The notes under the pieces: model-generated | The model's input: only the letters and a program-made list of their open reading frames with translations | Databases searched by the model: none | Told to the model about the DNA's origin: nothing | Assembly (NCBI GenBank): GCA_036013505.1 | Contig: CP107851.1 | Coordinates: 4,986,001-5,050,000, forward strand | Direction of reading: 5' to 3' | DNA length: 64,000 nucleotides | Origin: Streptomyces sp. NBC_00510 | Lineage (GTDB): Bacteria > Actinomycetota > Actinomycetes > Streptomycetales > Streptomycetaceae | Program-made: the position numbers and the translations under genes | Shown: positions 36,093 through 52,453 of the stretch, one piece after another | How positions within the stretch are numbered: the stretch's first letter is position 1 | How the letters are laid out: each line of letters opens with the position of its first letter

Positions 36093-36111
36093 GTCATGTG
36101 AGGCTGTGCGC

Positions 36112-37401
36112 ATGCCCGTTGTCCGTGATCTCCGTGTGCTGCTGCGCTTCCGGGACTTCCGCCGGCTGCTGACGGTGCGGCTGCTGTCCCAGCTCTCCGA
36201 CGGGGTCTTCCAGGTGGCGCTGGCGGCCTACGTGGTCTTCTCCCCGGAGAAGCAGACCTCGCCGGCCGCCATCGCCTCCGCGATGGCGGTCCTGCTGCTG
36301 CCGTACTCGCTCCTGGGGCCGTTCACGGGCGTCCTGCTGGACCGCTGGCGGCGCCGGCAGGTCCTCCTCTACTGCAACCTGCTGCGGGCGGCGCTCTCCA
36401 TCGGCACCGCCGTGCTGATGCTGCTGCGCGTCCCGGACTGGCTCTTCTGCCTGTCCGCCCTCTCGGTCACCGGCATCAACCGCTTCGTGCTCGCGGGCCT
36501 GTCGGCCGCCCTGCCCCGGGTCGTCGACGGGGAGCGCCTGGTCATGGCGAACGCGCTGTCCCCGACCGCCGGCACCCTCGCGGCCACCGCCGGCGGGGGA
36601 GCGGCCTTCCTGGTGCACCTGGTGATGGCCGAGGGCACCCGCTCCGACGTCCTGGTCGTGGTGCTGGGCGCTGTCCTCTACCTCTGTGCCGGACTCGCCG
36701 CACTCACCCTGGGGCGGGACCTGCTGGGGCCGGACCCGTCCCGTATCCAGCCGCGGGTGGGCGAGGCGCTGCTCAGCACCTTCCGCGGTCTGGTGCACGG
36801 CTTGGGACATCTGCGCCGGCGGCCACGCGCCGCACGCGCCCTGGCCGCGATGACGGCGATGCGCTTCTGCTACGGCGGGCTCACGGTGACGGTGCTGATG
36901 CTCTGCCGCTACGCCTGGGCGGGATCCGACGGGACCGGCCGTGGAACGGCGGACGGACTGGCGCTGCTCGGGCTGGCGGTCGCCGTCTCGGGTGCGGGCT
37001 TCTTCGCGGCGGCCGTGCTCACCCCCTGGGCCACGGGCCGCTTCGGCACCTTCGGATGGATCACCGTCTGCGCGGGTTCGGCCGCCGTCCTGCTCCCCGC
37101 ACTGGGCCTCCCCTTCGAGCCGGCGCCGGTACTGGCGGCGGCCTTCGTGCTCGGGCTGGCCACCCAGGGGGCGAAGATCGCCACCGACACGGTGGTCCAG
37201 TCCTCGATCGACGACGCCTACCGGGGGCGCATCTTCTCGATCTACGACGTGCTGTTCAACGTCGCCTTCGTCGGCGCCGCAGCCATCTGCGCGCTGGTCC
37301 TCCCGCCGGACGGCCGCTCCGTGGGCCTCCTTCTCGGACTCTCCGTGGTCTACGCGGCGGTGGCGGTCGGCACCGCCAGGACTCCGCGTCGTTTCACGTG
37401 A
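36112..37401 (+). CDS. Major facilitator superfamily transporter
   Basis: Encodes 429 residues with about twelve membrane helices and the MFS loop motif in VLLDRWRRRQVLLYCN between helices 2 and 3. It resembles drug/H+ antiporters of the enterobactin/MefA type. Substrate unknown. ATG 36112 has GTGAGG eight bases upstream. Its TGA stop (37399-37401) lies within a parS site, so the last residues (RRFT) are encoded by the start of the ParB-binding sequence. Confidence 0.88.
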   Translation: MPVVRDLRVLLRFRDFRRLLTVRLLSQLSDGVFQVALAAYVVFSPEKQTSPAAIASAMAVLLLPYSLLGPFTGVLLDRWRRRQVLLYCNLLRAALSIGTAVLMLLRVPDWLFCLSALSVTGINRFVLAGLSAALPRVVDGERLVMANALSPTAGTLAATAGGGAAFLVHLVMAEGTRSDVLVVVLGAVLYLCAGLAALTLGRDLLGPDPSRIQPRVGEALLSTFRGLVHGLGHLRRRPRAARALAAMTAMRFCYGGLTVTVLMLCRYAWAGSDGTGRGTADGLALLGLAVAVSGAGFFAAAVLTPWATGRFGTFGWITVCAGSAAVLLPALGLPFEPAPVLAAAFVLGLATQGAKIATDTVVQSSIDDAYRGRIFSIYDVLFNVAFVGAAAICALVLPPDGRSVGLLLGLSVVYAAVAVGTARTPRRFT

Positions 37402-37404
37402 AAC
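37391..37404. other. parS: parS site 1
   Basis: Perfect GTTTCACGTGAAAC, the Streptomyces ParB-binding site. It overlaps the MFS stop codon and lies 38 bases from the next site (start to start). Confidence 0.95.
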
Positions 37405-37533: not shown

Positions 37534-38013
37534 ATGGCGACTCCGCCGTCCGACAACACCAACATTCCGGCCCCGCAAGGCCAGCCCGGCGCCTTCCCGC
37601 CGCCTCAGGGTCAGCCCGGCGCCTTCCCGCCCCCGCAGGGTCAGCCCGGCGCCTTCCCGGCACCTGCCGCCCCGCCGCGGCGCGGCAAGAACATCGGCAA
37701 GGGCATCATCGGCGTGATCGTCACCATCGTGGTCATCATCGGCGTGCGGTTCGCCTTCTCCCAGTTCGACCAGACCGACGCCGAGACGTCGAAGGTCGGC
37801 AGCTGCCTCCACAACAAGGGCACCGAGAAGAGCCCGGACCTGGTGGACGTCGACTGTTCCTCCGGGGATGCGCAGTTCAAGATCGTCAAGAAGTTCGACG
37901 ACTCGACCGACCAGAAGCAGTGTGAGTCCGTCACCGAGTCGGACGTCTACTACACCCAGTCCGGGACCGACTTCAACAACGTGGTGCTCTGCCTGCAGAC
38001 CATCAGCAAGTGA
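37534..38013 (+). CDS. LppU/SCO3897-like membrane-anchored protein
   Basis: Encodes 159 residues. The N-terminal cytoplasmic part has three copies of a QGQPGAFPPP-type repeat, followed by one membrane helix (about 55-74) and an extracytoplasmic domain with four cysteines (SCLHN, VDCSS, KQCES, VLCLQ), able to form two disulphides. This matches the LppU/SCO3897 family, known by name only. AGGGAGGGGAACG precedes ATG 37534. It may act in the envelope; no enzymatic motif is seen. Confidence 0.8.
   Translation: MATPPSDNTNIPAPQGQPGAFPPPQGQPGAFPPPQGQPGAFPAPAAPPRRGKNIGKGIIGVIVTIVVIIGVRFAFSQFDQTDAETSKVGSCLHNKGTEKSPDLVDVDCSSGDAQFKIVKKFDDSTDQKQCESVTESDVYYTQSGTDFNNVVLCLQTISK
37571..37660 (+). repeat. Three 30-base tandem repeats
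   Basis: Units 37571-37600, 37601-37630 and 37631-37660 share AGCCCGGCGCCTTCCCG and encode the Pro/Gln/Gly repeat of the LppU-like protein. Confidence 0.9.
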
Positions 38014-38030
38014 TGGGACGGCCGTTAAGG

Positions 38031-38070
38031 CCGAGGGGGTCGTGTTTCACGTGAAACACGACCCCCTCGG
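38031..38070. terminator. 40-bp perfect palindrome combining a terminator with parS
   Basis: The arm 38031-38050 (CCGAGGGGGTCGTG then TTTCAC) is the exact reverse complement of 38051-38070. The centre is parS. It lies between convergent stops of the LppU-like gene and cca. As RNA it would form a GC-rich hairpin with the parS bases at the tip. Confidence 0.85.
38044..38057. other. parS: parS site 3 (centre of the 40-bp palindrome)
   Basis: Perfect GTTTCACGTGAAAC between convergent genes, flanked on each side by 13 further palindromic bases. Confidence 0.95.
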
Positions 38071-38098
38071 TGCGTCCGAGGCCCGGACGGGGTGACGC

Positions 38099-39514
38099 TC
38101 AGCCCTGCGCGGCCCACCACTCCTTCAGTGCGGCCACAGCGGCCTCCTCGCCCAGCGGGCCGTTCTCCAGGCGCAGCTCCAGCAGGTGGTTGTACGCCTT
38201 GCCGACCTGGGGGCCCGGGGGGATGCCCAGGACCTCCATGATCCGGTTGCCGTCCAGGTCCGGCCGGATCGCGTCCAGCTCCTCCTGGTCCTTCAGCTGC
38301 GCGATGCGCTCCTCGAGCCCGTCGTAGGTGCGCGACAGGGCCCCCGCCTTGCGCTTGTTGCGGGTCGTGCAGTCGGAGCGGGTCAGCTTGTGCAGCCGGT
38401 CGAGCAGCGGTCCGGCGTCCCGGACGTAGCGCCGGACGGCGGAGTCGGTCCATTCCCCGGTCCCGTAGCCGTGGAAGCGCAGGTGCAGCTCGACCAGCCG
38501 GGCGACGTCCTTGATGGTGTCGTTCGGGTACTTGAGCTTGGTCAGCCGTCCCTTGGTCATCTTGGCGCCGACCACTTCGTGGTGGTGGAAGGAGACCCGC
38601 CCGTCGGGCTCGAAGCGCCGGGTCCGCGGCTTGCCGATGTCGTGCAGCAGCGCAGCGAGGCGCAGCACGAGGTCCGGCCCCTCCGTCTCCAGCGCCATCG
38701 CCTGGTCCAGGACGGTCAGCGTGTGCTCGTAGACGTCCTTGTGGCGGTGGTGCTCGTCACGCTCCAGGCGCAGCGCCGGCAGCTCCGGGAGGACCCGTGC
38801 GGCCAGGCCGGTCTCCACCAGCAACTGCAGGCCCTTGCGGGGGTGGTCGGAGACGACCAGCTTGTTGAGCTCGTCCCGGATCCGCTCGGCGGAGACGATC
38901 TCGATGCGGTCGGCCATCTCCGTCATGGCTGTCACGACCTCGGGAGCCACCTCGAAGTCCAGCTGGGCGGCGAAGCGCGCGGCGCGCATCATCCGCAGCG
39001 GATCGTCGGAGAAGGACTCCTCCGGGGTGCCGGGAGTGCGCAGCACGCGCTGGGCGAGGTCACCGAGCCCGCCGTACGGGTCGACGAACTCCGCTTCCGG
39101 CAGGGAGACCGCCATCGCGTTGACGGTGAAGTCCCGGCGGACCAGGTCCTCCTCGATGGTCTCCCCGTAGGAGACCTCCGGCTTGCGCGAGGTGCGGTCG
39201 TAGGCCTCGGAGCGGTAGGTGGTCACCTCGATCTGGTAGCCGTACTTGCGGCATCCGACCGTGCCGAAGGCGATGCCCACCTCCCAGACGGCCTCCGCCC
39301 ACCCGCGGATGATCTTCAGTACCTGGTCGGGCCGGGCGTCGGTCGTGAAGTCGAGGTCGTTGCCGAGCCTGCCGAGCAGGGTGTCGCGGACCGAGCCGCC
39401 GACGAGGGCAAGCCGGAATCCGGCGTCCTTGAAGCGACGGCCGAGCTCTTCGGCCACCGGCGCGATCACGGGCGCGGTCTTCAGGGTCTGGGGGGCGTTG
39501 TTGGCATTCGGCAC
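38099..39514 (-). CDS. cca: CCA tRNA nucleotidyltransferase (with HD domain)
   Basis: Encodes 471 residues. The class II nucleotidyltransferase core shows LVGGSVRDTLLG (GGSVRD at 39-44) and the metal aspartates in GNDLDF (D53, D55), then VNAMAVSLPE and DPLRMMRAARFAAQL. An HD domain (LAALLHDIGKPRTRR and HHHEVVGAK) follows at about 245-330. It adds or repairs the 3' CCA of tRNA, or acts as a poly(A) polymerase. GTG 39514 is preceded not by a ribosome site but by a TACCCT -10-like box eight bases away, suggesting a leaderless mRNA. Confidence 0.93.
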   Translation of the reverse strand: MPNANNAPQTLKTAPVIAPVAEELGRRFKDAGFRLALVGGSVRDTLLGRLGNDLDFTTDARPDQVLKIIRGWAEAVWEVGIAFGTVGCRKYGYQIEVTTYRSEAYDRTSRKPEVSYGETIEEDLVRRDFTVNAMAVSLPEAEFVDPYGGLGDLAQRVLRTPGTPEESFSDDPLRMMRAARFAAQLDFEVAPEVVTAMTEMADRIEIVSAERIRDELNKLVVSDHPRKGLQLLVETGLAARVLPELPALRLERDEHHRHKDVYEHTLTVLDQAMALETEGPDLVLRLAALLHDIGKPRTRRFEPDGRVSFHHHEVVGAKMTKGRLTKLKYPNDTIKDVARLVELHLRFHGYGTGEWTDSAVRRYVRDAGPLLDRLHKLTRSDCTTRNKRKAGALSRTYDGLEERIAQLKDQEELDAIRPDLDGNRIMEVLGIPPGPQVGKAYNHLLELRLENGPLGEEAAVAALKEWWAAQG

Positions 39515-39674
39515 AACAGAAAAGGGTACGTGGCCATGCGCCCCGCGGCGGACCGGTTTACCGGCATCCGCGATCTTGCCGACGCCTCCGCGCCCCCGGA
39601 CTGTATCGATCTTGTGGCCCACTCACAGCACTTTGGGTCATCGAGCATCGTTACCATTCCAGGACGCACATCCG

Positions 39675-50044: not shown

Positions 50045-51154
50045 TCACTCCTCCTCGTCGGTCTCCTCGGTGAGCGACCGCTCGAGAACCTCGCCCTCAC
50101 CAGGGGCCATCGAGCCGAGGATGCGCTCCAGGTCCTCTATCGAGGCGAACTCCACGACGATCTTCCCGCGCTTCTGCCCCAAGTCCACCTTCACCCGGGT
50201 CTCGAAGCGGTCCGAGAGCCGCAGCGCCAGATCGGTCAGCGCGGGAGACATCCGCTTGCCGGCCCGGGGGGACGGGGCCTTCCTCGTCGGCTGGGACTCG
50301 GAGTTCATCACATGCACGATCTCCTCGACCGCGCGCACCGAGAGCCCCTCGGCCACGATCCGGCTGGCGAGCCGGTCCTGGTCCTCCACGTCCTCCAGGG
50401 CGAGCAGGGACCGTGCGTGCCCGGCGGAGAGCACACCGGCCGCCACACGGCGCTGTACGGGCGCGGAGAGCTTCAGCAGGCGCAGGGTGTTGGAGACCTG
50501 GGAACGGGAGCGGCCGATGCGGTCGGCGAGCTGCTCGTGCGTGCAGGCGAAGTCCTTGAGGAGCTGGTCGTAGGCGGCCGCCTCCTCCAGCGGGTTCAGC
50601 TGGGCACGGTGCAGGTTCTCCAGCAGCGCGTCCAGGAGGAGCTTCTCGTCCTCGGTGGCCCGCACGATCGCCGGGATGGCTTCCAGGCCCGCCTCACGGC
50701 TGGCCCGCCAGCGGCGCTCACCCATGATGAGCTCGTAGCGCTCCGGTCCGACCTGACGGACGACGACCGGCTGCAGGAGGCCGACCTCCTTGATGGAGGT
50801 CACCAGCTCGGCCAGCGCGTCCTCGTCGAAGACCTCACGCGGCTGACGCGGGTTGGGGATGATCGCGTCCAGCGGCAGCTCGGCGAAGTACGCCCCTGCG
50901 ACCATCGGCGGCTCCTGGGCCGCGATGGCTTCGGGGGTTTCACGTGAAACCGGGATCGCAGCGGTGCCCTCACGACCCTGCTGTTCCACCAGGGCCGCCA
51001 CCTTGGCGACGGCGACCCCTCGTTCCGGCGCCAGGACCGGGGCGGCGTTCGCCGCCGTCGCCACCGCGGTCGCGGCCGCCGCGTCCACACCGTTCGGTGC
51101 GGCGGGAATCAGCGCGCCAAGACCACGGCCGAGTCCTCTGCGTCGCTCACTCAC
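50045..51154 (-). CDS. parB: Chromosome-partitioning protein ParB
   Basis: Encodes 369 residues. A basic start ([14 protein letters not shown]) is followed by an Ala-rich linker (about 20-85), the CTP-binding ParB/Srx domain with GERRWR (145-150), the helix-turn-helix (about 200-225, [20 protein letters not shown]) and a C-terminal dimerisation domain. ParB loads at parS and slides, helping orient sister origins in sporulating hyphae. Its GTG overlaps the parA stop (GTGA). A parS site lies in the linker and encodes VSRET at 69-73. Confidence 0.97.
50937..50950. other. parS: parS site 6 (within parB)
   Basis: Perfect GTTTCACGTGAAAC in the parB linker, encoding VSRET. Confidence 0.95.
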
Positions 51155-52275
51155 TGGATCCCCTCCGAGGTGTTCTGCTCATTGACTTCTTGGGTGCGCC
51201 CCAGCCCGCGCAGGGCCATCTCGCGTGCAGCCTCCAGGTACGACAGCGCTCCGCTCGAACCCGGATCGTAGGTCAGCACCGTCTGGCCGTAGCTGGGGGC
51301 CTCCGAGATGCGGACCGAGCGCGGGATGCTCGTGCTCAGCACCTCCTTGCCGAAGTGGGTGCGCACTTCTTCGGCGACCTGCGAGGCGAGCCGGGTCCGG
51401 CCGTCGTACATGGTCAACAAAATGGTGGAGACGTGGAGCTTCGGGTTGAGGTGGCCACGCACCAGTTCCACGTTGCGGAGCAACTGGCCCAGTCCTTCCA
51501 GGGCGTAGTACTCGCACTGGATGGGGATGAGGACCTCGGCACCGGCGACCATGGCGTTGACGGTCAGCAGACCGAGCGAGGGCGGGCAGTCGATGAGGAT
51601 GTAGTCCAGCGGCTGCTCGTAGGACTCGATGGCCCGCTGCAGCCGGCTCTCCCGGGCTACCAGCGAGACCAGCTCGATCTCGGCACCGGCCAGGTCGATG
51701 GTGGCGGGGGCACAGAACAGGCCCTCCACGTCCGGCACCGGCTGGACTACGTCGGAGAGCGGCTTGCTCTCGACCAGGACGTCGTAGATGGAGGGGACTT
51801 CGGAGTGGTGGTCGATCCCTAGGGCGGTGGATGCATTGCCCTGGGGGTCGAGGTCGACGACCAGCACCCGGGCCCCGTGCAGGGCCAGGGAGGCGGCCAT
51901 GTTGACCGTGGTGGTGGTCTTGCCGACCCCGCCCTTCTGGTTGGCGACCACGACCACTCGGGTCTGGGGTGGGCGGGGGAGTCCTTCACCGGCCCGCCCC
52001 AGCGCCTCCACGGCCAGTTGGGCTGCACGGCCGATGGGGGTGTCGTCCATCGGGGGCGGTGTTTCACGTGAAACATCATCCCCGAACGACTCGGTGCGGG
52101 GACCGGGGACCGGATCGGCCATCGGTCCCGCGATGTTGGCGTCGGACCGCAAGGATTCACTCTCCTCGACTACAAGCTCGCAATGAACAGAGCCTGCCAT
52201 GCTTTCGGGGTCACGAACCAGTGAGGGCCGTTCTCCTGTGGATGAATCCACCGGTTGGGTCGCTGAATGGGTCAT
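51151..52275 (-). CDS. parA: Chromosome-partitioning ATPase ParA
   Basis: Encodes about 374 residues. The deviant Walker [19 protein letters not shown] starts near residue 113, with Walker A' [12 protein letters not shown] and switch blocks [17 protein letters not shown] long non-conserved N-terminal extension (about 100 residues) precedes it. The start is not secure: in-frame choices are GTG 52365 (inside parS site 8), ATG 52275, ATG 52200, 52122 and 52050, none with a strong ribosome site. A parS encodes VSRET about residue 68. ParA helps distribute ParB-origin complexes during sporulation. Confidence 0.93.
52061..52074. other. parS: parS site 7 (within parA)
   Basis: Perfect GTTTCACGTGAAAC within the non-conserved N-terminal extension of parA, encoding VSRET. 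Confidence 0.95.
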
Positions 52276-52349
52276 CTCGACGGCCCGATGAGAGAGCGAT
52301 TCGGCCGCGGCACGGGCGCGGCCGAGGATTCCTGGAAGTAGAGAGCGCC

Positions 52350-52363
52350 GTTTCACGTGAAAC
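52350..52363. other. parS: parS site 8 (upstream end of parA)
   Basis: Perfect GTTTCACGTGAAAC at the promoter side of parA, overlapping the furthest in-frame GTG (52365). ParB binding here could affect parAB expression. Confidence 0.95.
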
Positions 52364-52453
52364 ACGATGCGCAGCGCGGCGACCGTTTCCTACACGACAC
52401 TCCGGATTGTGTACGTATGGCCGTTTGTATGGAGCACACGACCCCAGCCGCGA

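Follow-up and report, generated by a model that had tools for sequence, protein, structure and literature searches.

A parS site at the apex of a putative two-way transcript-end hairpin between convergent genes of Streptomyces

The window (the whole 64,000-nucleotide stretch of Streptomyces sp. NBC_00510 DNA analysed here) carries a long palindrome built around a parS site, in the gap between an LppU-like gene and cca. The features concerned are the following:

37534–38013, + strand: LppU-like gene (label of the sequence-only reading), from the ORF list; our own gene caller recovered the 3' part
38031–38070: 40-bp perfect palindrome, CCGAGGGGGTCGT-GTTTCACGTGAAAC-ACGACCCCCTCGG, read from the sequence
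38031–38043: left outer arm, CCGAGGGGGTCGT, pairing base for base with 38058–38070; the arms covary in relatives
38044–38057: parS core forming the hairpin apex, GTTTCACGTGAAAC, an exact 14-bp match
38058–38070: right outer arm, ACGACCCCCTCGG, pairing base for base with 38031–38043; the arms covary in relatives
38099–39622, − strand: cca-type nucleotidyltransferase gene, identified by Pfam domains, start codon uncertain
50045–51154, − strand: parB (Pfam)
51151–52365, − strand: parA (Pfam)

We confirmed that the element noticed in the sequence-only reading of this DNA is a 40-bp perfect inverted repeat centred on an exact parS at 38031–38070, and that the genes flanking it are convergent, both in the ORF list and by our own gene caller. 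It is the only even perfect palindrome of at least 20 bp in the window. Outside the 14-bp core at 38044–38057 it comprises 13 perfect pairs, the chance of which is ~1e-7 per site by our own arithmetic (from base composition only, at ~29% match per pair). The stop codon of the LppU-like gene (+) ends 17 nt ahead of the palindrome, and the end of cca (−) lies 28 nt away from it. The identification of cca was confirmed, with PolyA_pol, PolyA_pol_RNAbd and HD domains all above the Pfam cut-offs; for the 159-aa protein labelled "LppU-like", Pfam gave no family.

The genome holds 11 exact parS sites, 10 of them within 77 kb. Two of the 11 are long-armed, namely 38031–38070 (13 pairs) and G000:C1:5296512 (15 pairs); no more than 1 further pair flanks any of the other seven exact sites of the window or the remaining sites of the genome (5060739 judged by eye). 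The second long-armed site (L225:2013) is located outside the window, in a tandem gap 39 nt behind a gene end, and all of its 15 outer pairs are perfect. Exact parS sites are also found inside the parB and parA frames (window 50937, 52061 and 52350). At 37391–37404, the parS core supplies the TGA stop codon (37399–37401) of an MFS transporter gene (36106–37401), an arrangement seen by coordinates also in L233 and L256.

We searched named genomes for cca and analysed the best 80 of at least 581 loci. In all of these best 80, cca is followed by one to three exact parS (153 sites), all within 135 nt of where the cca match ends, and the next called gene is convergent. At least one near-cca parS bears an outer stem of at least 7 positions in 71 of the best 80 loci, and of at least 9 positions in 67 of them, by a score that allows mismatches at a cost. 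The nine loci without an outer stem of at least 7 positions are L008, L011, L015, L018, L027, L029, L043, L063 and L075; L008, L011, L015, L018, L043 and L063 have two tandem parS without long arms. At least 7 perfect pairs beyond the core were found at 99 of the 153 near-cca parS versus 3 of the 198 parS elsewhere in those loci, and 178 of the latter have 0–2 pairs beyond the core. The earlier remark that known parS sites usually have the core only is true for the other parS sites of our sample. The element itself takes several forms: an insertion or part-duplication makes its centre asymmetric in L027/L156 and L064, where the arms still pair, and one stem encloses two parS in L140, L142, L151, L157, L170 and L180. 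In a hairpin survey of 201 of 206 oriented loci (L032, L090, L198, L201 and L213 were left out as containing N or being too short), the best hairpin contains parS in 163 of 167 loci, a figure that is overstated, as any two copies of parS will pair with one another.

The sequence-only reading had made its proposal depend on the outer arms staying complementary in relatives, and it withstood this check, since we observed strong covariation. The letters of the arms vary between species and their pairing is kept, as in GAGGGGCGAT/ATCGCCCCTC, GAGGGGGTGAT/ATCACCCCCTC and CCCGGGGGGAT/ATCCCCCCGGG. We scored pairing over 12 positions in those 72 of the best 80 loci (of at least 581) that carry at least two exact parS copies: 79% of the position-by-locus cells pair at the distal site, where shuffling the arms among species gives 59% (sd 1.3%), and 66% at the proximal site, where shuffling gives 48% (sd 1.3%). 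For parS elsewhere, the values are 36.5% and 35.0% (sd 0.9%). Parsimony on a cca DNA tree gave 79 and 76 replacements of one Watson–Crick pair by another at the two sites, against 7–11 and 10–12 when one arm was slid by 1–3 bases; these counts are approximate and include closely related species. On the same tree, 98 and 116 changes from a Watson–Crick pair to a mismatch represent losses.

Such arms could in principle serve the DNA, either as an extended symmetric site for ParB or another protein or as a cruciform that aids segregation, in which case the RNA hairpin would be incidental. The element is indeed symmetric in DNA. Yet the arm letters are free to change while pairing stays, unlike in a protein site read base by base; pairing alone would fit a cruciform too. 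The pairing around asymmetric centres and the near-absence of arms from parS elsewhere in those loci also speak against a role in DNA, and taken with the evidence given below they leave us regarding it as unlikely. A neutral origin seems to us less probable still. Templated repair of quasi-palindromes is a known mutation type, and during replication it could perfect and lengthen palindromes nucleated by parS without any selection; it would also yield compensated changes. However, the same nucleus is present at the 198 parS elsewhere in those loci and acquired arms at three, and such an origin does not sit well with this difference of gene-end parS from the rest. So do the other families: among 47 parS in 17 genomes outside the family (20 genomes searched; sites as printed, in one orientation each), 46 have no more than 4 pairs and one has 7, and 44 of the 47 have 0–2. 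Around cca in 17 loci of other families, we found no parS with up to one mismatch.

We determined the gene context of 107 exact parS in the window and in fetched stretches, together from six genomes (for G287, among the matches listed), with genes called by our own codon-usage script. Among the matches listed, 12 of the 36 convergent parS carry perfect arms of at least 7 pairs versus 1 of the 71 others (p 5e-6), which again counts against arms that serve the DNA. Twenty-four of the 36 convergent parS in the six genomes have no such arms, and the cca gap accounts for 7 of the 12 armed ones (both among the matches listed). With the cca gap excluded, perfect arms are found at 5 of 27 convergent versus 1 of 71 other parS (p 0.006), again among the matches listed. 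When mismatched stems of at least 7 positions are counted, the figures among the same listed matches become 12 of 36 versus 4 of 71 (p 3e-4); leaving out the cca gap turns them into 5 of 27 versus 4 of 71 (p 0.06). The four non-convergent parS with such stems are those of L249, L262, L225 (the 5296512 site) and L252. In L249 and L262 there is one perfect pair, position and sequence match the parS in the parA frame of the window, and our caller had ended the gene too early. In L252 a gene ends 15 nt before the stem, and the mismatch beside the core reads T-G on one strand and C-A in the direction in which the flanking genes are read.

Among gaps of 40–400 bp, strong hairpins occupy 23 of the 29 convergent ones, 15 of the 86 tandem ones and none of the 15 divergent ones, and exact parS lie inside 9 of the 23 in convergent gaps. 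The density of exact parS per kb is 3.24 in convergent gaps, 1.14 in tandem gaps, 0.20 in divergent gaps and 0.03 in coding sequence; these rates, from the window and 13 fetched stretches chosen for holding parS, serve to compare the classes only. Thus, parS are ~16-fold denser in convergent (26 in 8.0 kb) than in divergent gaps (4 in 19.6 kb), and look as if kept away from promoters. Two single parS, G116:C1:6008381 and 7669515 (L243 and L244), are located far from the origin cluster, one of them ~11 kb from the end of the 7.68-Mb contig. The parS of 20 closed streptomycete chromosomes have been mapped in a study whose available passages on stem-loops concern telomeres (PMC8743542).

Among the sampled genomes, genera g72, g73, g75, g80 and g83 have no parS behind cca. 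A strong, GC-rich plain hairpin is found in 19 of 34 parS-less loci, starting at a median of 13 nt after the cca stop, and this too weighs against arms that serve the DNA; no strong hairpin lies within 160 nt in the other 15. The hairpin is therefore often present with or without parS. Several parS-less loci show a comparable arm closed by plain GC letters, for example GCGAGGGGCGGCCCCGGGATTCTCCCGGGGCCGCCCCTCG in L223, with further cases in L207, L209, L217, L218 and, less strongly, L220; in L196, a parS that has no arms stands apart from a hairpin. We built a tree of 35 cca proteins, leaving out L295 (locus cut by a contig end) and L096 (one of two close outgroup rows); it implies three changes of the parS label (2–3 in bootstrap trees). 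The genome of L295 carries an armed parS in L150. The simplest history, in our view, is one gain of parS after g72/g75 had branched off and then a loss in the g73/g74/g80/g83 group, with g79 keeping or regaining it.

The parS core itself varies in the genus of the window (L115–L139, L160, L163 and L164). In 30 of 35 genomes of this genus, GTTCCACGTGGAAC is present in 4–14 copies, with 0–6 canonical copies kept; it is absent from the genome of the window and from four other genomes of the genus, and mixed core forms also occur. In G148, G149, G150 and G154, the gap copies have a changed core and a canonical copy is, by coordinates, still located inside parB. Directly before the G of GHAR, 25 of 25 sampled ParB proteins of the GTTCCACGTGGAAC group carry F and 5 of 5 from the other group carry A, one among several fixed ParB differences between the two. 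Matched by eye, the G of GHAR resembles the specificity residue G201 of Caulobacter ParB (PMC7383237). A single event within one clade may account for the core change. We toned down our initial view of this within-genus switch as a large novelty: PMC7022226 lists GTTCCACGTGGAAC-type sites as the parS of M. xanthus and P. aeruginosa, and C-type cores are the usual form in Myxococcus and Pseudomonas.

Read as RNA from either strand, the palindrome folds into a stem of at most 18 pairs, closed by an ACGU loop of 4 nt; the + strand structure has one G-U pair more, and in the − strand structure the two outermost pairs are open. Folding each strand of the whole 88-nt gap (38011–38098) gave −57.1 kcal/mol (z −5.94) for the + strand and −51.5 kcal/mol (z −5.90) for the − strand; for neither strand did any of 200 shuffled sequences reach the same stability. 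A GC-rich hairpin close behind stop codons, a trait of intrinsic terminators, is thus present at the palindrome. No U-tract follows the stem, and 0 terminator-like sites were detected in 37800–38300. In the 8 nt past 134 near-cca stems we counted on average 1.96 and 1.98 T in the two directions versus 1.41 expected, a weak excess. The terminator-like look described in the sequence-only reading is thus borne out by position, fold, recurrence between convergent genes and the plain hairpins of some parS-less relatives, but not in the sense of a canonical intrinsic terminator. We also tried wobble pairs as a guide to which strand's RNA matters and abandoned them: the 25 mismatches of near-cca stems (10 G-T, 8 A-C and 7 other) show no asymmetry. 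That the wobble counts give RNA no preference, and that the U-tract is absent, are both in favour of arms that serve the DNA.

A Term-seq study of S. lividans reports a U-rich motif at 194 of 1,640 3' ends, regards the upstream stem as the common determinant of 3' ends and suggests Rho-dependent termination as the source of U-less ends with stems (PMC6742748). Given that proportion of U-rich ends, the missing U-tract does not exclude a transcript-end role. The attribution of U-less stem ends to Rho in that species, together with the absence of a U-tract at 38031–38070, favours a variant in which termination is Rho-dependent and the main role of the hairpin is to protect or mature the resulting mRNA 3' ends, rather than to stop the polymerase itself. 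Nothing decisive stands against this variant, to which we give a substantial chance, somewhat short of even; the RNA-level evidence is common to it and to our preferred explanation, so that the two overlap in probability.

Our preferred explanation, which we hold with good though not full confidence, is that the palindrome is a two-way transcript-end hairpin of the LppU-like gene and cca that lacks a U-tract and has parS as its apex. The sequence supports a hairpin directly behind both genes, with parS on top and arms that stay complementary despite their letter changes, and some parS-less relatives keep a plain hairpin in the cca gap. An RNA stem made from either strand would end or protect the transcript, through the polymerase or through nucleases, and without a U-tract it would probably act as a U-less hairpin and/or as a block upstream of which Rho-dependent ends are left. 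The parS core would be where ParB loads on the duplex DNA. Since parS is self-complementary, it can take the place of the hairpin tip and leave the stem unspoiled. Watson–Crick pairs would serve both RNAs and G-U pairs only one, and near-perfect palindromes would be favoured over stems with G-U because both strands are transcribed into the hairpin. A likely benefit would be the loading of ParB where transcription from both sides fades. One short sequence would thus probably both load a segregation protein and mark the ends of two genes, and parS-tipped hairpins in convergent gaps appear, from their sequences, to recur in part of the Streptomycetaceae. Termination at 38031–38070, and any cross-talk between it and ParB, is what we infer from these data. 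We put forward only tentatively, as rather doubtful, the broader idea that such centromere-terminators form a class in Streptomycetaceae that shields ParB loading from transcription, and that ParB occupancy alters flanking termination in sporulation, coupling segregation to gene ends.

On this explanation, a single sequence would be common to chromosome segregation, as duplex DNA, and to the ending of transcripts, as RNA, with its pairing kept across many species. The density of parS per class of gene gap suggests a rule for the placement of ParB sites. Mutual disturbance of transcription and ParB clamps is open to direct test, for arms and core can be altered separately, and deletion or editing of parS in Streptomyces may alter read-through.

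With chromosomal parS sites of ParABS systems, the element shares the exact core, the clustering around parA/parB and its membership in a set of 11 genome copies; elsewhere parS have mostly 0–2 pairs past the core and 38031–38070 has 13. Passages on S. venezuelae report that parS sites are bound by ParB (PMC4852455, PMC12511625) and, for the sites as a group, that almost all ParB ChIP-seq peaks lie at them (PMC4852455). We found no description of parS as part of a terminator in the titles, abstract openings and passages searched; in this literature, parS and the transcript-end hairpin are each known and their fusion did not appear. According to passages on surveyed bacteria, stem-loops prefer convergent gaps (PMC1590033), and 55 bidirectional transcript ends have been mapped in S. 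clavuligerus (PMC8269248). These two-way ends share with our element the position between convergent genes and a strong hairpin on both strands; 38031–38070 differs in its apex, a protein-loading site, and in the lack of a U-tract. The nearest printed idea in the passages we found is that DNA uptake sequences of Neisseria and Pasteurellaceae act as inverted-repeat terminators, a role described as contentious (PMC2346458, citing Ambur 2007). In both systems a genome-wide DNA signal would double as part of a transcript-end hairpin stem; in the uptake sequences copies face each other, whereas at 38031–38070 the tip is a single self-complementary site and the base consists of covarying arms.
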